This document shows positions 47,871 to 56,175 of a stretch of DNA of 64,000 bases, piece by piece. The stretch covers positions 62,001 to 126,000 of the IMG/VR virus record IMGVR_UViG_3300015261_000002, one strand, 5' to 3'. Position 1 is the stretch's first letter; every line of letters starts with the position of its first letter. A program made the position numbers and the translations under genes. The notes below the pieces were generated by a model. That model did no database searches, had not been told where the DNA came from, and worked only from the letters and a program-made list of their open reading frames with translations. This stretch comes from a virus.

Positions 47871-48998
47871 TTACTGACCGAACAAGCCGGCCGGTACGTG
47901 GTGCACAGGTACAGCTTCGGCAGGCACGACTTCCGCAGTGCCCATGTTGATCAGGTTGTTGCCCGGCATCAGGTTGCGACCCAGTGCCGAACCAGCAGCA
48001 CCCAGGCCCAGACCGATAACGCCGCCGACGACGTAACGACCGAATTGGCTTTCGACGAAGTTGTCGACTTGTTCACCGGCGAAGAAGCCAGCGACGCCGC
48101 CAACCAGAGTACCGATTGCCGAACCAGTCGTCAGGCCGCCACGAGCCATCATTTCCATACCGCCGCCGATCACGGCGCTACCGGCTGCGATCCAGCTGGT
48201 GCGGATGCCTTCGTCACGTTCACCCATCAGGCTGAAACGGGACTTGTCGGCGTAGTGAGCATCGTCTTGCGGCTTGTTCACTTCACACCAGCGCATGAAG
48301 CTGTGGACGGTTTCGCTGCCCACTTCTTCACCCAGGCCTTCGCTGAAGATCACGAAGTTTTCGTCGAACGATTTGGCCTTGTCAGCAGCCAGGGAGAAAG
48401 CTTCCCACTTGGCGGTCAGTTCAGGCGAGGTGGCGGCGTAAGCGATCCAGGCAGCAGCGCGCTGTTCTGGAGTGCTGCGGCCGACGACGAGCATGGCGGT
48501 TTCGAACTTCTGAACGTTTTTGGTCAGGTCAGAGTTGTTTGCAGTGTTGGCGTTTTTCATGGTGTCGGTGTCCTGTACGTTTGCGTTGGAGGTGGCTTGA
48601 TCGTTGTGATCAGGAGAAGTGGTGGTCGATCCAGTGACCGGCTCTTGGTGCAGGTGATCGGTGCCTTGGTTCAGCTCGACGAAGCTGGCTTCAGGCGTCA
48701 GACCACCGACTTTGACATTTGCAGAACCCGTCAACTCGTTAACCTTGACGGGTTCTTGACCGTGGGTGAAATCACCGGCCTTCTTGATTTGGTTGAAGGA
48801 CCAGTTAACACCCAGCTGATTGTTCACCAGCTGCAACACAGGTTGACGGTCACGAGTCGTAACCTGTTCCTGATCGAGCATCACCGTTTTCATGTAGGCC
48901 AACTGAATTGGCTCCGGTGCACCCTCAGCACGAAGGTTGGAGACTACCGCTACCAGCATGGATGCAGTGTTCTCAACTTGTTGGTTCTTGGTGTTCAT
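47871..48998 (-). CDS. Glycine-zipper putative membrane protein
   Basis: 375 residues from the ATG at 48998 (TAGGAGTACCGCT before it; frame open to 49037). N-terminal about 100 residues are globular; 110-160 is a Thr/Asn/Asp-rich linker; 160-265 is helical. Residues 269-282, 291-308 and 321-340 are Gly/Ala-spaced hydrophobic helices (TGSAIGTLVGGVAGFFAG, YVVGGVIGLGLGAAGSALG). Such glycine zippers pack closely in membranes and are seen in pore-forming or virion-associated membrane proteins. Function unknown. Strong early promoter in front and terminator behind. Confidence 0.8.
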   Translation of the reverse strand: MNTKNQQVENTASMLVAVVSNLRAEGAPEPIQLAYMKTVMLDQEQVTTRDRQPVLQLVNNQLGVNWSFNQIKKAGDFTHGQEPVKVNELTGSANVKVGGLTPEASFVELNQGTDHLHQEPVTGSTTTSPDHNDQATSNANVQDTDTMKNANTANNSDLTKNVQKFETAMLVVGRSTPEQRAAAWIAYAATSPELTAKWEAFSLAADKAKSFDENFVIFSEGLGEEVGSETVHSFMRWCEVNKPQDDAHYADKSRFSLMGERDEGIRTSWIAAGSAVIGGGMEMMARGGLTTGSAIGTLVGGVAGFFAGEQVDNFVESQFGRYVVGGVIGLGLGAAGSALGRNLMPGNNLINMGTAEVVPAEAVPVHHVPAGLFGQ

Positions 48999-49069
48999 AG
49001 CGGTACTCCTATCAAGTGAGGTTAGATTACTCATCATTGCGAATAATCTTTATTGATTTAATCACACAA

Positions 49070-49344: not shown

Positions 49345-49379
49345 CTACTCCTACTCCCCGATAAAGGGAGTAGGAGTAG
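49345..49379 (-). terminator. Strong intrinsic terminator
   Basis: Perfect 14-bp stem CTACTCCTACTCCC with a 7-base loop. On the minus strand followed by GTTACCTTTATTTTTTGC. Ends the operon finishing with the 2H phosphoesterase gene. Confidence 0.9.
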
Positions 49380-49385
49380 TACCGG

Positions 49386-49835
49386 TTACTTCTTCTTTGG
49401 TTTCTTGATGCCGAACTGCTCGTTGTGGAAGATCAGCGTGCGACCGCCCCACTCAGCAAACGCGTGATTGATGGCGAGGATATCGTGCTTGTCGAAGTCG
49501 TATTTCAACGACATGTGGAACAGGGGTGTTCCATACGAATGCACGTAACCTTCATCTTTCAAGCGGCGAAACTCTTCCAGCATGTCAGTACTGGTAAGAT
49601 GAAACACCACACCATCGCCCAGGGTTTCCAAGGAGATGATGTTCGCCTTGAATTCCTTAGATGGTGACAGCAGGTCACACAACGGCTTATCGATATCGCG
49701 CTCATCGTAAATCATCGTTGCATGCAGTTCGTGTTTGGCTTCTGGCGGGATACCTGCCAGTACCAACGTCGAAATGATCTCTGCCTGCATTTCAGGTTTA
49801 AGCTGAACACTGACGTAGCTGTAATCCAGTTCCAT
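49386..49835 (-). CDS. 2H phosphoesterase-family protein
   Basis: 149 residues, the usual size for this superfamily. The two defining His-x-Thr/Ser motifs are present: H38-A-T40 in HELHATMIYDERD and H107-M-S109 in PLFHMSLKYDF, at the spacing expected of a two-lobed fold. Family members act on 2',3'-cyclic phosphates or 2'-5'/3'-5' oligonucleotides. The phage protein Acb1, which destroys CBASS cyclic oligonucleotides, belongs here and has a similar H-x-T...YD surround. Anti-defence is therefore a good hypothesis, RNA-end processing the alternative. Last gene of an operon that also encodes a DHH phosphoesterase. Confidence 0.85.
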   Translation of the reverse strand: MELDYSYVSVQLKPEMQAEIISTLVLAGIPPEAKHELHATMIYDERDIDKPLCDLLSPSKEFKANIISLETLGDGVVFHLTSTDMLEEFRRLKDEGYVHSYGTPLFHMSLKYDFDKHDILAINHAFAEWGGRTLIFHNEQFGIKKPKKK

Positions 49836-49840
49836 TACGG

Positions 49841-50008
49841 TTAGTCCTTGATACGTTTGACTTCCACGCGCACCATGGTCTTACCGGAACCTACGCGCGC
49901 CCTCAAACGATGGCAGGCGTCTTTGACCAAGGCGGTGATGACCTGATCAGCATGGTGCATCACCATTTGGTAACCATCGTCCATTTCAAACAAAAAATCG
50001 CTTCCCAT
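49841..50008 (-). CDS. 55-residue basic protein
   Basis: Read directly: MGSDFLFEMDDGYQMVMHH, then a helix with Ala/Val and a basic C-terminal strand (RVGSGKTMVRVEVKRIKD). The GSGKT string is not a working P-loop: the protein is too short and has no Walker B. 5 bases separate it from the 2H gene. Confidence 0.6.
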   Translation of the reverse strand: MGSDFLFEMDDGYQMVMHHADQVITALVKDACHRLRARVGSGKTMVRVEVKRIKD

Positions 50009-50009
50009 G

Positions 50010-50225
50010 CTACTTCACCATAACGAGAATTGAAGAAATGGAGCTATTTCGGCGCAACCTTTTTTCCAGCCGTCTGGCGGCAGGAGTTTGATAAGGTTTA
50101 CATGCGCCACCCGAGAACTGGACTTTAAGCTTATGTCCGTGTCCCCATACAAAAAGGCGAAGCTTGTCAGAAACTGGGTAGGGGGTGAAATCCATCACCC
50201 CAAAAGAAATCGATTCATTACCCAT
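50010..50225 (-). CDS. Small hypothetical protein
   Basis: 71 residues; AAAGGAATAACCG before the start. Beta-rich first half (RLFVWGHGHKLKVQFSGG), basic C-terminus (AARRLEKRLRRNSS). Not recognised. Confidence 0.65.
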   Translation of the reverse strand: MGNESISFGVMDFTPYPVSDKLRLFVWGHGHKLKVQFSGGACKPYQTPAARRLEKRLRRNSSISSILVMVK

Positions 50226-50236
50226 CGGTTATTCCT

Positions 50237-50530
50237 TTAATTCATCAAGGGGCGGACGTAGAATTCTTCCACCTCTTTGCCTTCAGCAAAAGGGACGTTA
50301 TCGTTTTCGGCAATAGATGCCCGCACGATAAAGCCGTTACGTACTTCAATGCGCAGCTTGGGAAACTCAGGCTTGCCGGTATCACGACACACGTACAGCA
50401 GTGGCCCGCCCATTACACCAAGGACATTTTCCAGCATGCGGGTATCAACCGCGTCTGCAACATCCTTGCCGATTTCTTTATAACGCCAGATGCCGGCATA
50501 ACGAAAGAATTTAACTGCCTTGTTTTTCAT
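50237..50530 (-). CDS. Small hypothetical protein
   Basis: 97 residues. Basic N-terminus, GPLLYVCRDTG in the centre, and a C-terminal FAEGKEVEEFYVRPLMN. Its start overlaps the stop of the DHH gene (ATGA), indicating coupled translation. Not recognised. Confidence 0.75.
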   Translation of the reverse strand: MKNKAVKFFRYAGIWRYKEIGKDVADAVDTRMLENVLGVMGGPLLYVCRDTGKPEFPKLRIEVRNGFIVRASIAENDNVPFAEGKEVEEFYVRPLMN

Positions 50531-51450
50531 TTGAACAACCCAAAGACCTGGCCGATGTTGTAGAGCGTAAAACTAACCGCTCCTTTTACTTTGTCTCGGA
50601 ACGAGTAATCCAGTAGTTCGTGAGAACGAGGGAAACGCTTGTCGTTATAAGGGATCAAAAAGCCGGACGCATCTTTGTGCCCACCACCGCCAAAGTACTC
50701 GGCAATAGCGGAAACGTCGAAACCAGAATCTTTCTGGCACCGGATGGAATACTTACGTCCTTCTGGAAGATCCATGTACACGAGGGCAAATGGATAATCC
50801 TTGGAAAGAATGTTACCGAGATCAGACGCAAAGAAAATGTTGGCGTTGACCACAGGTACTTCAAAGCCCAGACACTTCATCATCCGGGCGTTCATAGCAA
50901 CGCGATCGGTATCCTGCTCGTGCTTACGCAGCAAGGTACGGCCTTCTTCGATGAGGTCCAGAGGATCGGTGTTGATGAGCGCGTCGAATTGTTCCACATT
51001 AAACGGGTACGAGAACGCTGCGGTTACCCAGTAGTTTGTATTCGGGTATTTGAACTGCCACAGGTCACGGTCTTCGACATACAACAGACCCTCTGGTGGC
51101 GGAGCATGGTTGAAGTACTTCCACGCCAGCATTGCCCCCGAATGGCTCTCATCAACAACAAAGAGTCCTTCAAGGTTTTTCTTAGCCGACGTGTGGTGAT
51201 CCAACACTACCACCGCATGCGCACGCTCCAACATCTCAACCATGATTTCGCGTGGGTAACTGAAGTCCACAACGTAAACCATTTTGCCATCTACATCTGG
51301 CAGCTTGTCGCGGTAAGCCGCCGATACCAACTCGATCTCGATTCCGAGGTTTTTGAAATGACGCCACACCGCCCATGCAGCGCCAATCCCATCCAGGCAG
51401 TCTTGATGATAAATGCACAAGACCGGCCGTAGCTCCATACTTGAATCCAT
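50527..51450 (-). CDS. DHH/DHHA1-family phosphoesterase
   Basis: 307 residues. All family motifs are visible: H15-x-D17-x-x-D20-G in YHQDCLDGIGAAW, D62 in VVDFS, D84-H85-H86 in VVLDHHTSA, D128 in VEDRDLW, and the substrate-binding DHHA1 signature GGGGHKDASG at 254-263. These Mn-dependent enzymes (NrnA/NrnB, GdpP catalytic part) hydrolyse short linear oligonucleotides, pApA or related phosphodiesters. Likely cytoplasmic. In a phage it may recycle nanoRNA from host RNA or degrade signalling oligonucleotides. Co-transcribed with the 2H gene. Confidence 0.9.
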   Translation of the reverse strand: MDSSMELRPVLCIYHQDCLDGIGAAWAVWRHFKNLGIEIELVSAAYRDKLPDVDGKMVYVVDFSYPREIMVEMLERAHAVVVLDHHTSAKKNLEGLFVVDESHSGAMLAWKYFNHAPPPEGLLYVEDRDLWQFKYPNTNYWVTAAFSYPFNVEQFDALINTDPLDLIEEGRTLLRKHEQDTDRVAMNARMMKCLGFEVPVVNANIFFASDLGNILSKDYPFALVYMDLPEGRKYSIRCQKDSGFDVSAIAEYFGGGGHKDASGFLIPYNDKRFPRSHELLDYSFRDKVKGAVSFTLYNIGQVFGLFK

Positions 51451-52012: not shown

Positions 52013-52234
52013 TCACCCCATGGTAACGTAACGACGCACTTGGATGTGCTTGACGTTATTCCGTTTCATGCGGTTATGCAGGCGCATGATGGCATCACGC
52101 TGAAGGTCATTTGGAATAAAGCCGGCCATAAAGGCGGGCTTAGGACCCTCGGTTCGGAATACCTGAACCTGAAAAATCGGAATAACCGTTCCAGGATCGG
52201 GCTTATAAAGAGTTATCAAGCTTACTGGTTTCAT
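52013..52234 (-). CDS. Small hypothetical protein
   Basis: 73 residues. Beta-rich start, then a helix with a basic tail (AIMRLHNRMKRNNVKHIQVRR without further motif). Overlaps the stop of the RNase H gene by 4 bases. Not recognised. Confidence 0.7.
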   Translation of the reverse strand: MKPVSLITLYKPDPGTVIPIFQVQVFRTEGPKPAFMAGFIPNDLQRDAIMRLHNRMKRNNVKHIQVRRYVTMG

Positions 52235-52713
52235 CCTGCGAATCCTTCGTCTACCTCTGTTGGATTGTTCGCTGCCGCTACAGCCAGCTTATCCGCCAGT
52301 TCGTTATCAGGCACGCCCGTGTGACCACGCACCCAGAAGAACTTTACCTTGTTAGCGTTCAGCAGAGGCTGGATGCGTTCCCAGAGGTCTTTGTTCTTAA
52401 TAGGTTGCTGAGTCTTCCAGGCAATCCAGTTACTGCGAGCCCAGCCATTCAACCACTTGGTAGCGGAGTTAATGACGTACATGGAATCGGTGGTTACTTC
52501 AAACACCACCCCGGGTTTAGCAAACTCCTCCAGCGTGACGATCACCGCCAAGAGCTCCATACGGTTATTAGTCGTACGGTGGTAACCTTTCGAGAGTGTG
52601 ACAACCTCGTCTCCGCATCTCGCTACAATCCCATAACCTCCAGGACCTGGGTTACCCAGCGCACTGCCATCCGTGTGCACCTTGTAGGTAATAGGGGGTT
52701 GTTTTTTGCTCAT
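52231..52713 (-). CDS. rnhA: Ribonuclease HI
   Basis: 160 residues, typical length. Degrades the RNA strand of RNA-DNA hybrids, for example primers and R-loops. All catalytic residues are seen: D15 in HTDGSALGNPGPGG, E53 in NNRMELLAV, D76 in TTDSMYVIN, H131 and D141 in WVRGHTGVPDNELAD. The basic protrusion region (KWLNGWARSNWIAWK) is also conserved. It lies between small genes and the DNA ligase, forming part of a replication cluster with the SbcC-like gene. Confidence 0.95.
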   Translation of the reverse strand: MSKKQPPITYKVHTDGSALGNPGPGGYGIVARCGDEVVTLSKGYHRTTNNRMELLAVIVTLEEFAKPGVVFEVTTDSMYVINSATKWLNGWARSNWIAWKTQQPIKNKDLWERIQPLLNANKVKFFWVRGHTGVPDNELADKLAVAAANNPTEVDEGFAG

Positions 52714-52766: not shown

Positions 52767-54218
52767 TTAGAAAGGACGACCGAAATCGTCTTCGTAGTTC
52801 TCGCGATAGACCTCGCCGGTAACCACCCGTGCGGTACGTACGGTGCTGTCGAGCATCTTGATCACGCGCAGACGCGAACGGAGCGACTGCACTACATAAT
52901 GGATCAAGTTGCCAACAACCGGATCTTTCATGTCGGGATCGAGTGGGTTATGATAACCGCCGGTGCGCAGAACTTCACGCACGCCAGCATCGATCTCGTC
53001 CATCGAAGCATCGATGTCCAATTCAACTGGCTTGTGATACCCAGCGCCGATAACGATCTTCTTCACACTTTCACGACGCATGAACATGTGGTCATGCGGC
53101 AGATCGATTTTCATCGAGCTGAACTTGTTTGGAAGGTACACCGGTCGATCACCCAGGGACTCGTCAGTCATTTGGGTATTGACGATCATCACAGCACCGG
53201 TAGAAGGGATGTAGGTCCGTTCCAGACGCGCATACTTCAGGGTCGCGTTGTTACCCTTGATGGTCGAGTCTTTGATGGTCGACGATTCTGCCCGGAATTC
53301 TTCGGTCACTTTGATGGTGCTGTTGTCGATCGCGCAGTGACGAATCATGATCGCGCCGCCAAAGGTCGAGTTGAAAGCCGTGCTGTTGGTTACATGCGCC
53401 CACTGCAACTTTTTGCGGGCGCCATCACCATCGTTAGTCAACCACGGTGCCTTCAGATCAGCCGCACGGGTACGGTTGCTGATGGTCGACGCAGCGAACG
53501 TGCAGTGCGAGGTCGATTGACCTTCGAGGCACACGTCGCCGAAGAACGAGTCATGACGGCTGTCGGAGTTGATCAGCACAACCTGGTTGGCTGCCGACGA
53601 TCCGCGGTCGTACGGTGAACGAAGGTTGCGACGCGCAGGACCGCCCTGGATTTCAACCGACGATTTGTCATCGAGCAGAAATTGGATGACGACCCCATCA
53701 ACGTCGACGGTATAGTGCGAGAAGGTGCGGCCTTCACGATTAGTTGCCGGCTCTGGCGGGCGATTCTGCCAGAAGGTGTGACCGCTTTCGGTGGAGATGC
53801 GGTACGTGTCGGGGATGTTGGTCTGGAGTGGCTCGACCAGCACACCCTTCACCATGACCCAAGGCGTTTTCAGAGCAGCCATCTCATCCCGGGTGTGGTA
53901 GTTGAACGACAGACCGCCGGAAGGTTGGAAACCATCCCCTGCCTTGGGGATCTTCAGATCGGATTTGATCTTGTCGACCGCTTCTTCGACGGTCATGGTC
54001 TTTTTGGCCTTGGTACCGTTCGTGCCGGACTGGGAGGCGTTGACGACCTTCACAGATTTAGGCTGATCACCAGGAACCGCTTTACCTTTGTCGGCAACCT
54101 TTTCAAGCGCTTTAGCCGCTTTGTCCACTTGCTTGGGATTGACGTGCGGGATCGGGAGTTTGGACAGTGCTTCTTGCTGTTCGGCTGCATTTGCTTTCTT
54201 TTCAGTTGCGGTGGTCAT
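52767..54218 (-). CDS. Beta-solenoid-like protein
   Basis: 483 residues. Ala/Lys-rich helical N-terminus (about 1-85), then a globular beta region. From about 205 to 345 the sequence repeats short units with Ser/Thr/Asn and aliphatic residues (VVLINSDSRHDSFFGDVCLE, CTFAASTISN, AIMIRHCAIDNSTIKV, SSTIKDSTIKGNNATLKYA), resembling a right-handed parallel beta-helix. A helical C-terminus follows. Beta-helices in phages are usually virion or polysaccharide-binding proteins, but this gene lies among nucleic-acid enzymes. Function unknown. Confidence 0.7.
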   Translation of the reverse strand: MTTATEKKANAAEQQEALSKLPIPHVNPKQVDKAAKALEKVADKGKAVPGDQPKSVKVVNASQSGTNGTKAKKTMTVEEAVDKIKSDLKIPKAGDGFQPSGGLSFNYHTRDEMAALKTPWVMVKGVLVEPLQTNIPDTYRISTESGHTFWQNRPPEPATNREGRTFSHYTVDVDGVVIQFLLDDKSSVEIQGGPARRNLRSPYDRGSSAANQVVLINSDSRHDSFFGDVCLEGQSTSHCTFAASTISNRTRAADLKAPWLTNDGDGARKKLQWAHVTNSTAFNSTFGGAIMIRHCAIDNSTIKVTEEFRAESSTIKDSTIKGNNATLKYARLERTYIPSTGAVMIVNTQMTDESLGDRPVYLPNKFSSMKIDLPHDHMFMRRESVKKIVIGAGYHKPVELDIDASMDEIDAGVREVLRTGGYHNPLDPDMKDPVVGNLIHYVVQSLRSRLRVIKMLDSTVRTARVVTGEVYRENYEDDFGRPF

Positions 54219-54231
54219 GAGTTTGCGTCCC

Positions 54232-56175
54232 TTAGTTATGGTTCTTGATCTGAGCGATCAAATCTTCAATACTGGAAACCCTGGCGATAGTTACCATAGG
54301 TATATCCAGCTCGGTTGCTTTTAACAGTTTCTTTTCACCTGGTTTCTCCCCCACTAGGAGTAACTGGCAGTCCTTGGTGAGTTTATCCACCAATTCGATA
54401 CCCACCAATTCCAGGAGATCAAACAAGCCCTCACGAGGAAGACCTACGTCACCGGTAATACAGACTTTTCGTTCAGTCACTTCCTCCTTGTAAAACGGAT
54501 GCACACGCTTGAACAGGGTGTTGGCATTGTTCAAGATAGCGTCGGTTTCCATTGCCTTGGCAATCGGATCAGCAAGTTTGCTACCAAACCCTTTGATCTT
54601 TTTCAGGTTGTCCTTATTACCGAGCCAATGGAGTATCTCTTCAGGGATCAACCTAATGCCGGCCAGGTTCATGGCTTTGGCGATCTTCTTTGCACGAATG
54701 ACTTCAATACCAGGCAACCCCATTGCAAAGATGGCCTTGTGCAGCGGTACGGAGTCAACCTTGCGAATGTTGTCCCAGATGGATGCGTGAATGTACGTCG
54801 GTTCCAAGAACAGGATATCCGCTGGATACTCGATGTCTTCCCGTTCAATCAACTCAGCCAACAACACAGGCCCGAGGCCGTCGATGTCAAGGCAACCGCG
54901 ACTGACAAACGACAGGCAGCGATTGAGTAACTGGCTTGGACATTCTGCCACGTTGTCGCAATAGAGGAAGGCACTGGCGTCACTGACCTTGAGTCTCAGC
55001 GTAGAGCCACAGCTTGGGCACGTATCAGGTGCCTTAACACGCTCACCTACGCCAGGATCAACGACACGGTGTACCCGGGGGATAACATCGTTGTTACGAC
55101 GAATCGCCAGGATCGAGTCCTCACGCAATCCTAGCCCCATGAACTGGTGGTAGTTGTCGATACTGGCGCGACTACAGGTTACACCACCCACCTTAACCGG
55201 GTGATAAAGAATGGTAGGGTTAACCCGTCCTGTCTTACCGGTCTTCCAGATCGTGGTGTCGTAAGCCGCTTCGACTTCTTCATCCGGGTACTTGTAAGCC
55301 ACGCCCCAGTTAGGGAACTTGTTGGTCTCCCCCATGCGGTCTTGTTCGGCAAAGCTGTTTACCTTGGCCACAACACCGTCAGTTGGTAAGAAGAGATCTC
55401 GGCTACCCGATTTCAATTCGTCAATAGACAACACCGGCGATACATCAAACCCACCTTCCCGCCACCGTGTTCGCAAGTCCATGTACTGTTCACAGTCGAA
55501 CCGTTCACTGGAACCATAGGCAAAGAACTTCAACTTGCCAATGGTCTCAGGATTCTGGTTACCCCGACTGGTACGCACCCAACCACTCGCCGCATTACGC
55601 GGAGTGACCATCTGCTTCTCTACAGCTTCGTTGTAAGCGATAAAGTCAGCAAATGGCAATACCGCCTCACCCCGAATAGAAAACGTCTCAGGGAAGCTCA
55701 TAGGCAGCGTCAGCGGTAGGTTGTTGAACAAGTTGATCGAGTGAGTCACGTCCTCACCAAATAACCCGTCCCGGCGTGTACACATGCGTACCAGCTTACG
55801 GTTTTCATACAACAGATCCAAAGCCAGACCGTCCAGCTTCAGTTCATAGATGACAACCGTATTGGCCGGCAGTTTACCCAGCCATTCTTCCAGGGCTTCA
55901 ACGCTTAACTTCTTTTTGAGGCTAAGCATCGGTTCCTTGAACTCAACCAGTTCCAAGGCTGACATAGGGTTCGCTAGCACAATGGGGGCTTCATCGGCTA
56001 CCAGGTGCCGGGCAATGTCCGGGTAGAGTTCCGACAGTTCTTCAAACCGCTGAACCTTCTTATCGAAGTCGGCGTTCGTAATCAGTTCCTTGTCGTTCAG
56101 GTGGAACTGTGTATTGAGGTGGGCGATCTCGTCGTGTAACGATTTCATCTCCTCGTAGATGTTTGGCGCCTTCAT
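54232..56175 (-). CDS. ligA: NAD-dependent DNA ligase
   Basis: 647 residues, full length for the family. Seals nicks using NAD. Domains: Ia region (1-60), adenylation domain with the active-site Lys113 in ELKLDG, downstream SIRGEAV and the WGVAYKYP motif; OB fold with the HPVKVGGV motif; a four-Cys zinc finger (CPSCGS, then YCDNVAECP); helix-hairpin-helix repeats (IKGFGSKLA region); and a C-terminal BRCT-like domain with KVCITGDVG. Complete set, so likely active. Among phiKZ-like phages an own ligase is known in some members. Adjacent to the beta-solenoid and to a small membrane gene (4-base overlap). Confidence 0.97.
   Translation of the reverse strand: MKAPNIYEEMKSLHDEIAHLNTQFHLNDKELITNADFDKKVQRFEELSELYPDIARHLVADEAPIVLANPMSALELVEFKEPMLSLKKKLSVEALEEWLGKLPANTVVIYELKLDGLALDLLYENRKLVRMCTRRDGLFGEDVTHSINLFNNLPLTLPMSFPETFSIRGEAVLPFADFIAYNEAVEKQMVTPRNAASGWVRTSRGNQNPETIGKLKFFAYGSSERFDCEQYMDLRTRWREGGFDVSPVLSIDELKSGSRDLFLPTDGVVAKVNSFAEQDRMGETNKFPNWGVAYKYPDEEVEAAYDTTIWKTGKTGRVNPTILYHPVKVGGVTCSRASIDNYHQFMGLGLREDSILAIRRNNDVIPRVHRVVDPGVGERVKAPDTCPSCGSTLRLKVSDASAFLYCDNVAECPSQLLNRCLSFVSRGCLDIDGLGPVLLAELIEREDIEYPADILFLEPTYIHASIWDNIRKVDSVPLHKAIFAMGLPGIEVIRAKKIAKAMNLAGIRLIPEEILHWLGNKDNLKKIKGFGSKLADPIAKAMETDAILNNANTLFKRVHPFYKEEVTERKVCITGDVGLPREGLFDLLELVGIELVDKLTKDCQLLLVGEKPGEKKLLKATELDIPMVTIARVSSIEDLIAQIKNHN

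Follow-up and report, generated by a model that had tools for sequence, protein, structure and literature searches.

A divergent Acb1-family 2H phosphodiesterase and a neighbouring, probably independent DHH-DHHA1 phosphoesterase in a jumbo phage akin to Pseudomonas phage EL

A gene run in an EL-related jumbo phage carries a 2H and a DHH phosphoesterase gene close together, and the question is whether their products act together. The initial annotation proposed that they do, as a complete counter-defence path in which the 2H protein opens a cyclic oligonucleotide and the DHH protein degrades the linear product to mononucleotides. The window analysed here, 64,000 nt in length, is part of a viral source record of 224,747 bases. 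Among annotated phages, Pseudomonas phage EL and the phages related to it come nearest by protein, with 48.6% identity for the 2H protein and 39% for the DHH protein, and close copies, with 2H proteins of 79–89% identity, are found in four IMG/VR records. No relative at the near-DNA level was found in the phage collection, and all comparisons are therefore made at the protein level; PADLOC gave no match. The two genes are conserved across jumbo phages and are thus not chance ORFs. The reading that we consider probable, although well short of certain, is that of a divergent Acb1-family anti-signalling 2H enzyme together with an independent DHH enzyme.

The features of the locus are listed in Table 1. 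The 2H and DHH genes have the same orientation with three small genes between them, as had been annotated, and the 55- and 97-aa families among these recur in relatives. The terminator placed directly after the 2H gene is likewise present, and it is real, since a strong hairpin recurs 3' of 2H in 8 of the 10 relatives compared, even where greater distance has altered its sequence; in records L026 and L029 another gene is located directly after 2H in its place. The repeat-rich F0 protein is single in the window and in EL, and two to four adjacent members of its family are found in L026, L027, L028 and L029.

Table 1. Features of the 2H–DHH locus, with coordinates in the window.
Feature	Coordinates	Strand	Evidence and remarks
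Family F6, 388 aa, downstream of 2H	47871..49037	-	Conserved in EL clade and RisingSun
Hairpin terminator directly 3' of 2H gene	49345..49379	-	15 pairs
2H phosphoesterase, Acb1 family, 149 aa	49386..49835	-	Pfam PF23474, phrog_755, PDB profile, AlphaFold, Foldseek
Small ORF, 55 aa, family F14, kept in EL clade	49841..50008	-	No Pfam match
Small ORF, 71 aa	50010..50225	-	Without relative in compared set
Small ORF, 97 aa, family F13	50237..50530	-	After DHH in near relatives, before DHH in L031
DHH-DHHA1 phosphoesterase, phage type (phrog_4771), 307 aa	50527..51450	-	Motifs, Pfam, AlphaFold, Foldseek
RNase H, upstream of 2H, conserved across jumbo phages	52231..52713	-	Pfam PF00075, synteny
Repeat-rich protein of 483 aa, family F0, flanked by RNase H and ligase genes	52767..54218	-	Family comparison
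NAD-dependent DNA ligase	54232..56175	-	Match to EL gp122 ligase

The 2H protein contains both of the Acb1-like H-x-T/S motifs that had been noticed, namely H38-A-T40 and H107-M-S109, which align with H44/T46/H113/T115 of T4 Acb1. H44, T46, H113 and a Thr or Ser at position 115 are kept in all 16 rows of the alignment, and Y12 in 15 of them. Real homology behind the motifs is supported by profiles. The protein matches the Pfam Acb1 family PF23474 with 32.1 bits against a cut-off of 27, which is also passed by T4 Acb1 (202.7 bits) and by all nine jumbo-phage relatives scanned (28–64 bits), these being the members from EL, RisingSun, EJP2, Munch, pTD1 and PDCC-1 and three close relatives. A profile made from the jumbo-phage proteins only finds the Acb1 structures 9q2g (8e-10) and 7t26 (2e-7) first in the PDB, with LigT not among the matches; profiles were needed for this comparison because phmmer with the single 2H sequence gave only spurious PDB matches. 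The window protein and T4 Acb1 (57B) are both members of phrog_755, and 57B is the founding Acb1 (PMC9117128). Jumbo-phage 2H genes are annotated as RNA ligase because phrog_755 is so labelled, although it contains T4 57B, and in many jumbo phages the proteins so labelled belong to the Acb1 family. The label is spread over true Acb1 genes of phrog_755, e.g. NC_007623.1 139197–139622 (L002:7139–7564).

The AlphaFold model of the 2H protein has a pLDDT of 91, with 65 in the C-terminal block, and Foldseek ranks 9q2y and 9q2g at the top by E-value, followed by 7t26 and 7t27. The best match is 9q2g, from phage BCSR5 and with the molecule name Acb1 (TM 0.74, rmsd 2.8). FBB1 Acb1 (7t26) has a TM of 0.59, about the same as the plant cyclic phosphodiesterase 1jh6 (0.61), a near tie that counts against the preferred reading, and E. 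coli LigT is lower (0.51). The window 2H protein thus belongs to the Acb1 sequence family.

Base recognition, to judge from the aligned residues, probably differs from that of T4 Acb1. In the FBB1/T4 enzyme W74, E141 and W147 hold the bases, and E141 contacts the adenine N6 (PMC9117128). T4 Y12 corresponds to Y7 in the window protein and the F107 position is a Tyr, and the W74 position is Leu here and either Leu or Met in all members of the jumbo group. The column of the adenine-reading E141 holds Gly in the window and the EL lineage, with G, Q, E and A all occurring among the jumbo-phage homologues, and no equivalent of the C-terminal lid or of its Trp W147 could be aligned in the window protein, the alignment near the C-terminus being weak. 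The T4-like Acb1 rows themselves vary, with Phe for W74 in two and Lys for W147 in one. As E141 and the lid are unrecognisable, a CBASS specificity is open to doubt, but since the C-terminal alignment is weak their loss is a warning and not proof of a changed specificity. The protein is thus an Acb1-like phosphodiesterase whose specificity is unproven and may have changed; the altered base-reading residues make it directly testable.

In the reading that we favour, the 2H protein is a divergent, metal-independent 2H phosphodiesterase of the Acb1 family, and the ring that it most likely opens is a cyclic di- or trinucleotide, or a signal related to these, produced by a host defence, CBASS for instance. 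Attack on the 3'-5' bond would come from the 2'-OH, and a 2',3'-cyclic phosphate would be resolved by the HxT/HxS pair. An enzyme of this kind should need no second one, because ring opening would already remove the signal. CBASS III-C strongly protects against a phiKZ-like nucleus-forming phage (PMC10889362), and an anti-CBASS enzyme should therefore be of use to phages of that kind. An anti-signalling or anti-CBASS role of the 2H protein is likely, and activity on cyclic signals would explain how phages with their DNA hidden in a nucleus also escape defences based on diffusible nucleotides. The DHH protein would be an independent phage DHH-DHHA1 oligonucleotide phosphodiesterase that owes to inheritance its place in the variable slot, which has RNase H on one side and 2H on the other.

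The DHH ORF carries VVLDHHTS and FGGGGHKDASGF, and narrowly passes the Pfam cut-offs for two domains, DHH with 29.9 bits and DHHA1 with 26.6 bits; among the members of its family, DHHA1 is matched by 48 of 48 and DHH by 43 of 48. Its motifs are motif I HxxCxDG (H15, C18, D20), D62, D84-H85-H86, D127/D129 and GGGGH, all of them common to the 48 aligned members, with G255, G257 and H258 invariant in the GGGGH region. The full catalytic set of NrnA with which the protein had been credited was not found, as motif I reads HxxCxDG and not HxxxDxD. The metal ligands of B. subtilis NrnA are H20, D24, D26, D80, H103 and D156 (PMC5593865), and by sequence spacing, with the final Asp in motif I as the reference point, the position of D24 is taken by the invariant C18. 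The NCBIfam NrnA equivalog NF053633 gives 22 bits against a cut-off of 350. With a Cys at a metal-ligand position and a score this far below the equivalog cut-off, an assignment to the NrnA type is not supported, and the protein is best regarded as a DHH-DHHA1 phosphoesterase of another type. Its AlphaFold model (pLDDT 91.5) has a DHH-DHHA1 fold that Foldseek places near NrnA homologues, PggH and RecJ-like proteins, in no clear subfamily.

The Cys of motif I is present at 85 of 87 viral and 74 of 80 bacterial loci, frequencies that are biased upward because the patterns of the collection scan partly contain the Cys, and phages found by plain tblastn share it. Phages and Pseudomonas widely carry this Cys-motif family, which is uncharacterised to the extent of the present search; in the literature, no paper was found that describes such phage DHH enzymes. 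It is common in genomes of Pseudomonas and other gammaproteobacteria (L132–L211). The DHH proteins of EL (L002:5650–6888) and SPLA10 (L046:3647–4927) are annotated with an N-terminal extension of about 100 aa that the window protein does not have.

That the DHH protein works in nucleic-acid turnover, recycling short RNA-primer fragments from RNase H together with RNase H and the DNA ligase and without a signalling role, is a serious possibility, though we lean slightly away from it. It covers the DHH protein only and is compatible with the preferred reading of the 2H protein. Ligase, RNase H and DHH follow in that order in one gene run, and the DHH fold is close to those of nanoRNases and RecJ-like nucleases. 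RNase H leaves 5'-phosphorylated oligonucleotides. Substrates of that kind are preferred by NrnA (PMC9757072), but the Cys in motif I may change the activity of the phage protein, and outside the EL clade the flanks of viral DHH loci showed no RNase H, with CcrPW having one about 2.5 kb away.

For the 2H protein, the alternative is a phosphodiesterase that acts on 2',3'-cyclic RNA ends and serves the repair of tRNA or RNA, as suggested by the RNA ligase label and by a survey of jumbo phages that puts their 2H proteins at 2',3'-cyclic ends (PMC7824862). Such enzymes share the superfamily and the catalytic motifs, Acb1 is followed in the structural ranking by the plant CPDase 1jh6 and the archaeal 2'-5' ligase-like 1vdx, and loss of E141 and the lid would relax a specificity for cyclic dinucleotides. 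The Pfam and PDB profiles, however, favour Acb1 over the LigT-type families, the LigT and 2_5_RNA_ligase2 families giving no match to the window protein and scores below cut-off for its relatives, and the clustering with RNA-end phosphodiesterases that the initial annotation had named as counter-evidence is not seen in the sequences. The label itself includes the T4 Acb1. Neither the RNA ligase PF09414 nor RtcB was found in the 224.7-kb genome record with controls that worked, and in the same record, which may be incomplete, AAA_33 stays below cut-off; for PF09511 the control itself was silent. A role in RNA-end repair is thus possible but unlikely.

The order ligase, RNase H, variable slot and 2H is found across the EL, RisingSun and Vibrio jumbo phages. 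The slot holds DHH, on the same strand as 2H and close to it, in 9 of 11 EL-clade records (the window included), other genes in L027 and L028 of the same clade, and an SspB-like protein and DHFR in RisingSun; DHH is absent from 16 other 2H phages examined. A DHH profile run over 26 2H-bearing records, T4 included, finds DHH in eight, all of the EL clade, and with the window counted 18 of 27 records have 2H but lack DHH, two of them belonging to the EL clade. In the other direction, 2H is absent from seven DHH phages outside the EL clade. Among 80 viral DHH loci, many on short contigs, it is found in the flanks of only three EL-clade contigs and of one contig with a portal-type 2H domain, and none of 80 bacterial DHH loci has a 2H gene nearby. 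On the 2H tree the presence of DHH changes twice, by one gain and one loss, indicating a single historical event followed by one loss and not repeated co-selection. Adjacency was rejected as proof of joint function on account of this single origin and of the unrelated genes in the slot of RisingSun, L027 and L028, and the pairing is weak evidence for such a function. What still speaks most for a functional link is the gap between DHH and 2H of only 12 bases in L026 and 9 in L029, which shows that tight coupling of the two genes is possible and would fit co-expression.

One further locus, L089, was not counted as the same pairing, as its 2H domain within 5 kb resembles the portal-protein type. 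It is located at L089:7113–7532 (+), about 3 kb from DHH, and resembles the 2H domain at the C-terminus of the portal protein of Pam3 (PDB 8hds); portal-fused 2H domains look like a separate branch.

It is rather improbable that the Acb1 branch of EL, RisingSun and the Vibrio phages lost the adenine reading by E141 and the lid and now degrades a different cyclic signal, e.g. adenine-free or larger rings, with the Cys-motif DHH evolved beside it in the EL clade to finish the product. For the two-step path of the initial annotation, it can be said that degradation of linear dinucleotides is known for DHH-DHHA1 enzymes and that the jumbo-phage survey, which predates the description of Acb1, predicted both families as counter-signalling, the 2H proteins for 2',3'-cyclic ends (PMC7824862). 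Acb1, however, cuts 3' of adenosine and releases a linear 3'-phosphate product such as GpAp (PMC9117128), whereas B. subtilis NrnA showed no binding of ApA or GpG that lacked the 5'-phosphate, and is hardly active on pAp (PMC9757072). As the 5'-OH/3'-phosphate ends of the Acb1 product do not match the 5'-phosphate preference of NrnA, an NrnA-like enzyme is not a natural second step; a different, non-NrnA DHH enzyme might serve as one. With the distribution, the product chemistry and the non-NrnA character of the DHH protein all against it, a dedicated two-step path is not supported, and it is the least likely of the explanations considered here.

Compared with known systems, the window DHH protein shares with NrnA and other DHH-DHHA1 nanoRNases, PggH and TM1595 both domains, the DHH and GGGGH motifs and the overall fold, and differs from NrnA in the invariant Cys at D24. 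The window 2H protein shares with Acb1 (T4 gp57B; FBB1, PDB 7t26/7t27) the 2H fold, the HxT/HxT(S) active site, Tyr12, E138 and an aromatic residue at F107 (Y in the window), yet it is only about 17% identical to the T4 enzyme. The phosphodiesterase of BCSR5 (9q2g/9q2y, 'Anti-CBASS protein Acb1'), for which no activity paper was found, is the closest by profile and structure, yet has 20% identity. EL gp126 and its homologues in RisingSun, pTD1, PDCC-1, EJP2 and Munch belong to the same family and are annotated as RNA ligase or hypothetical; the literature gave no activity data for jumbo-phage members, which we count against the preferred reading of an anti-signalling 2H enzyme, and no paper linking Acb1 with phage EL. 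The T4 gene is located beside 57A, whereas the 2H gene of the window lies beside RNase H, and in EL, RisingSun, pTD1 and PDCC-1 it is found downstream of RNase H in the same way.
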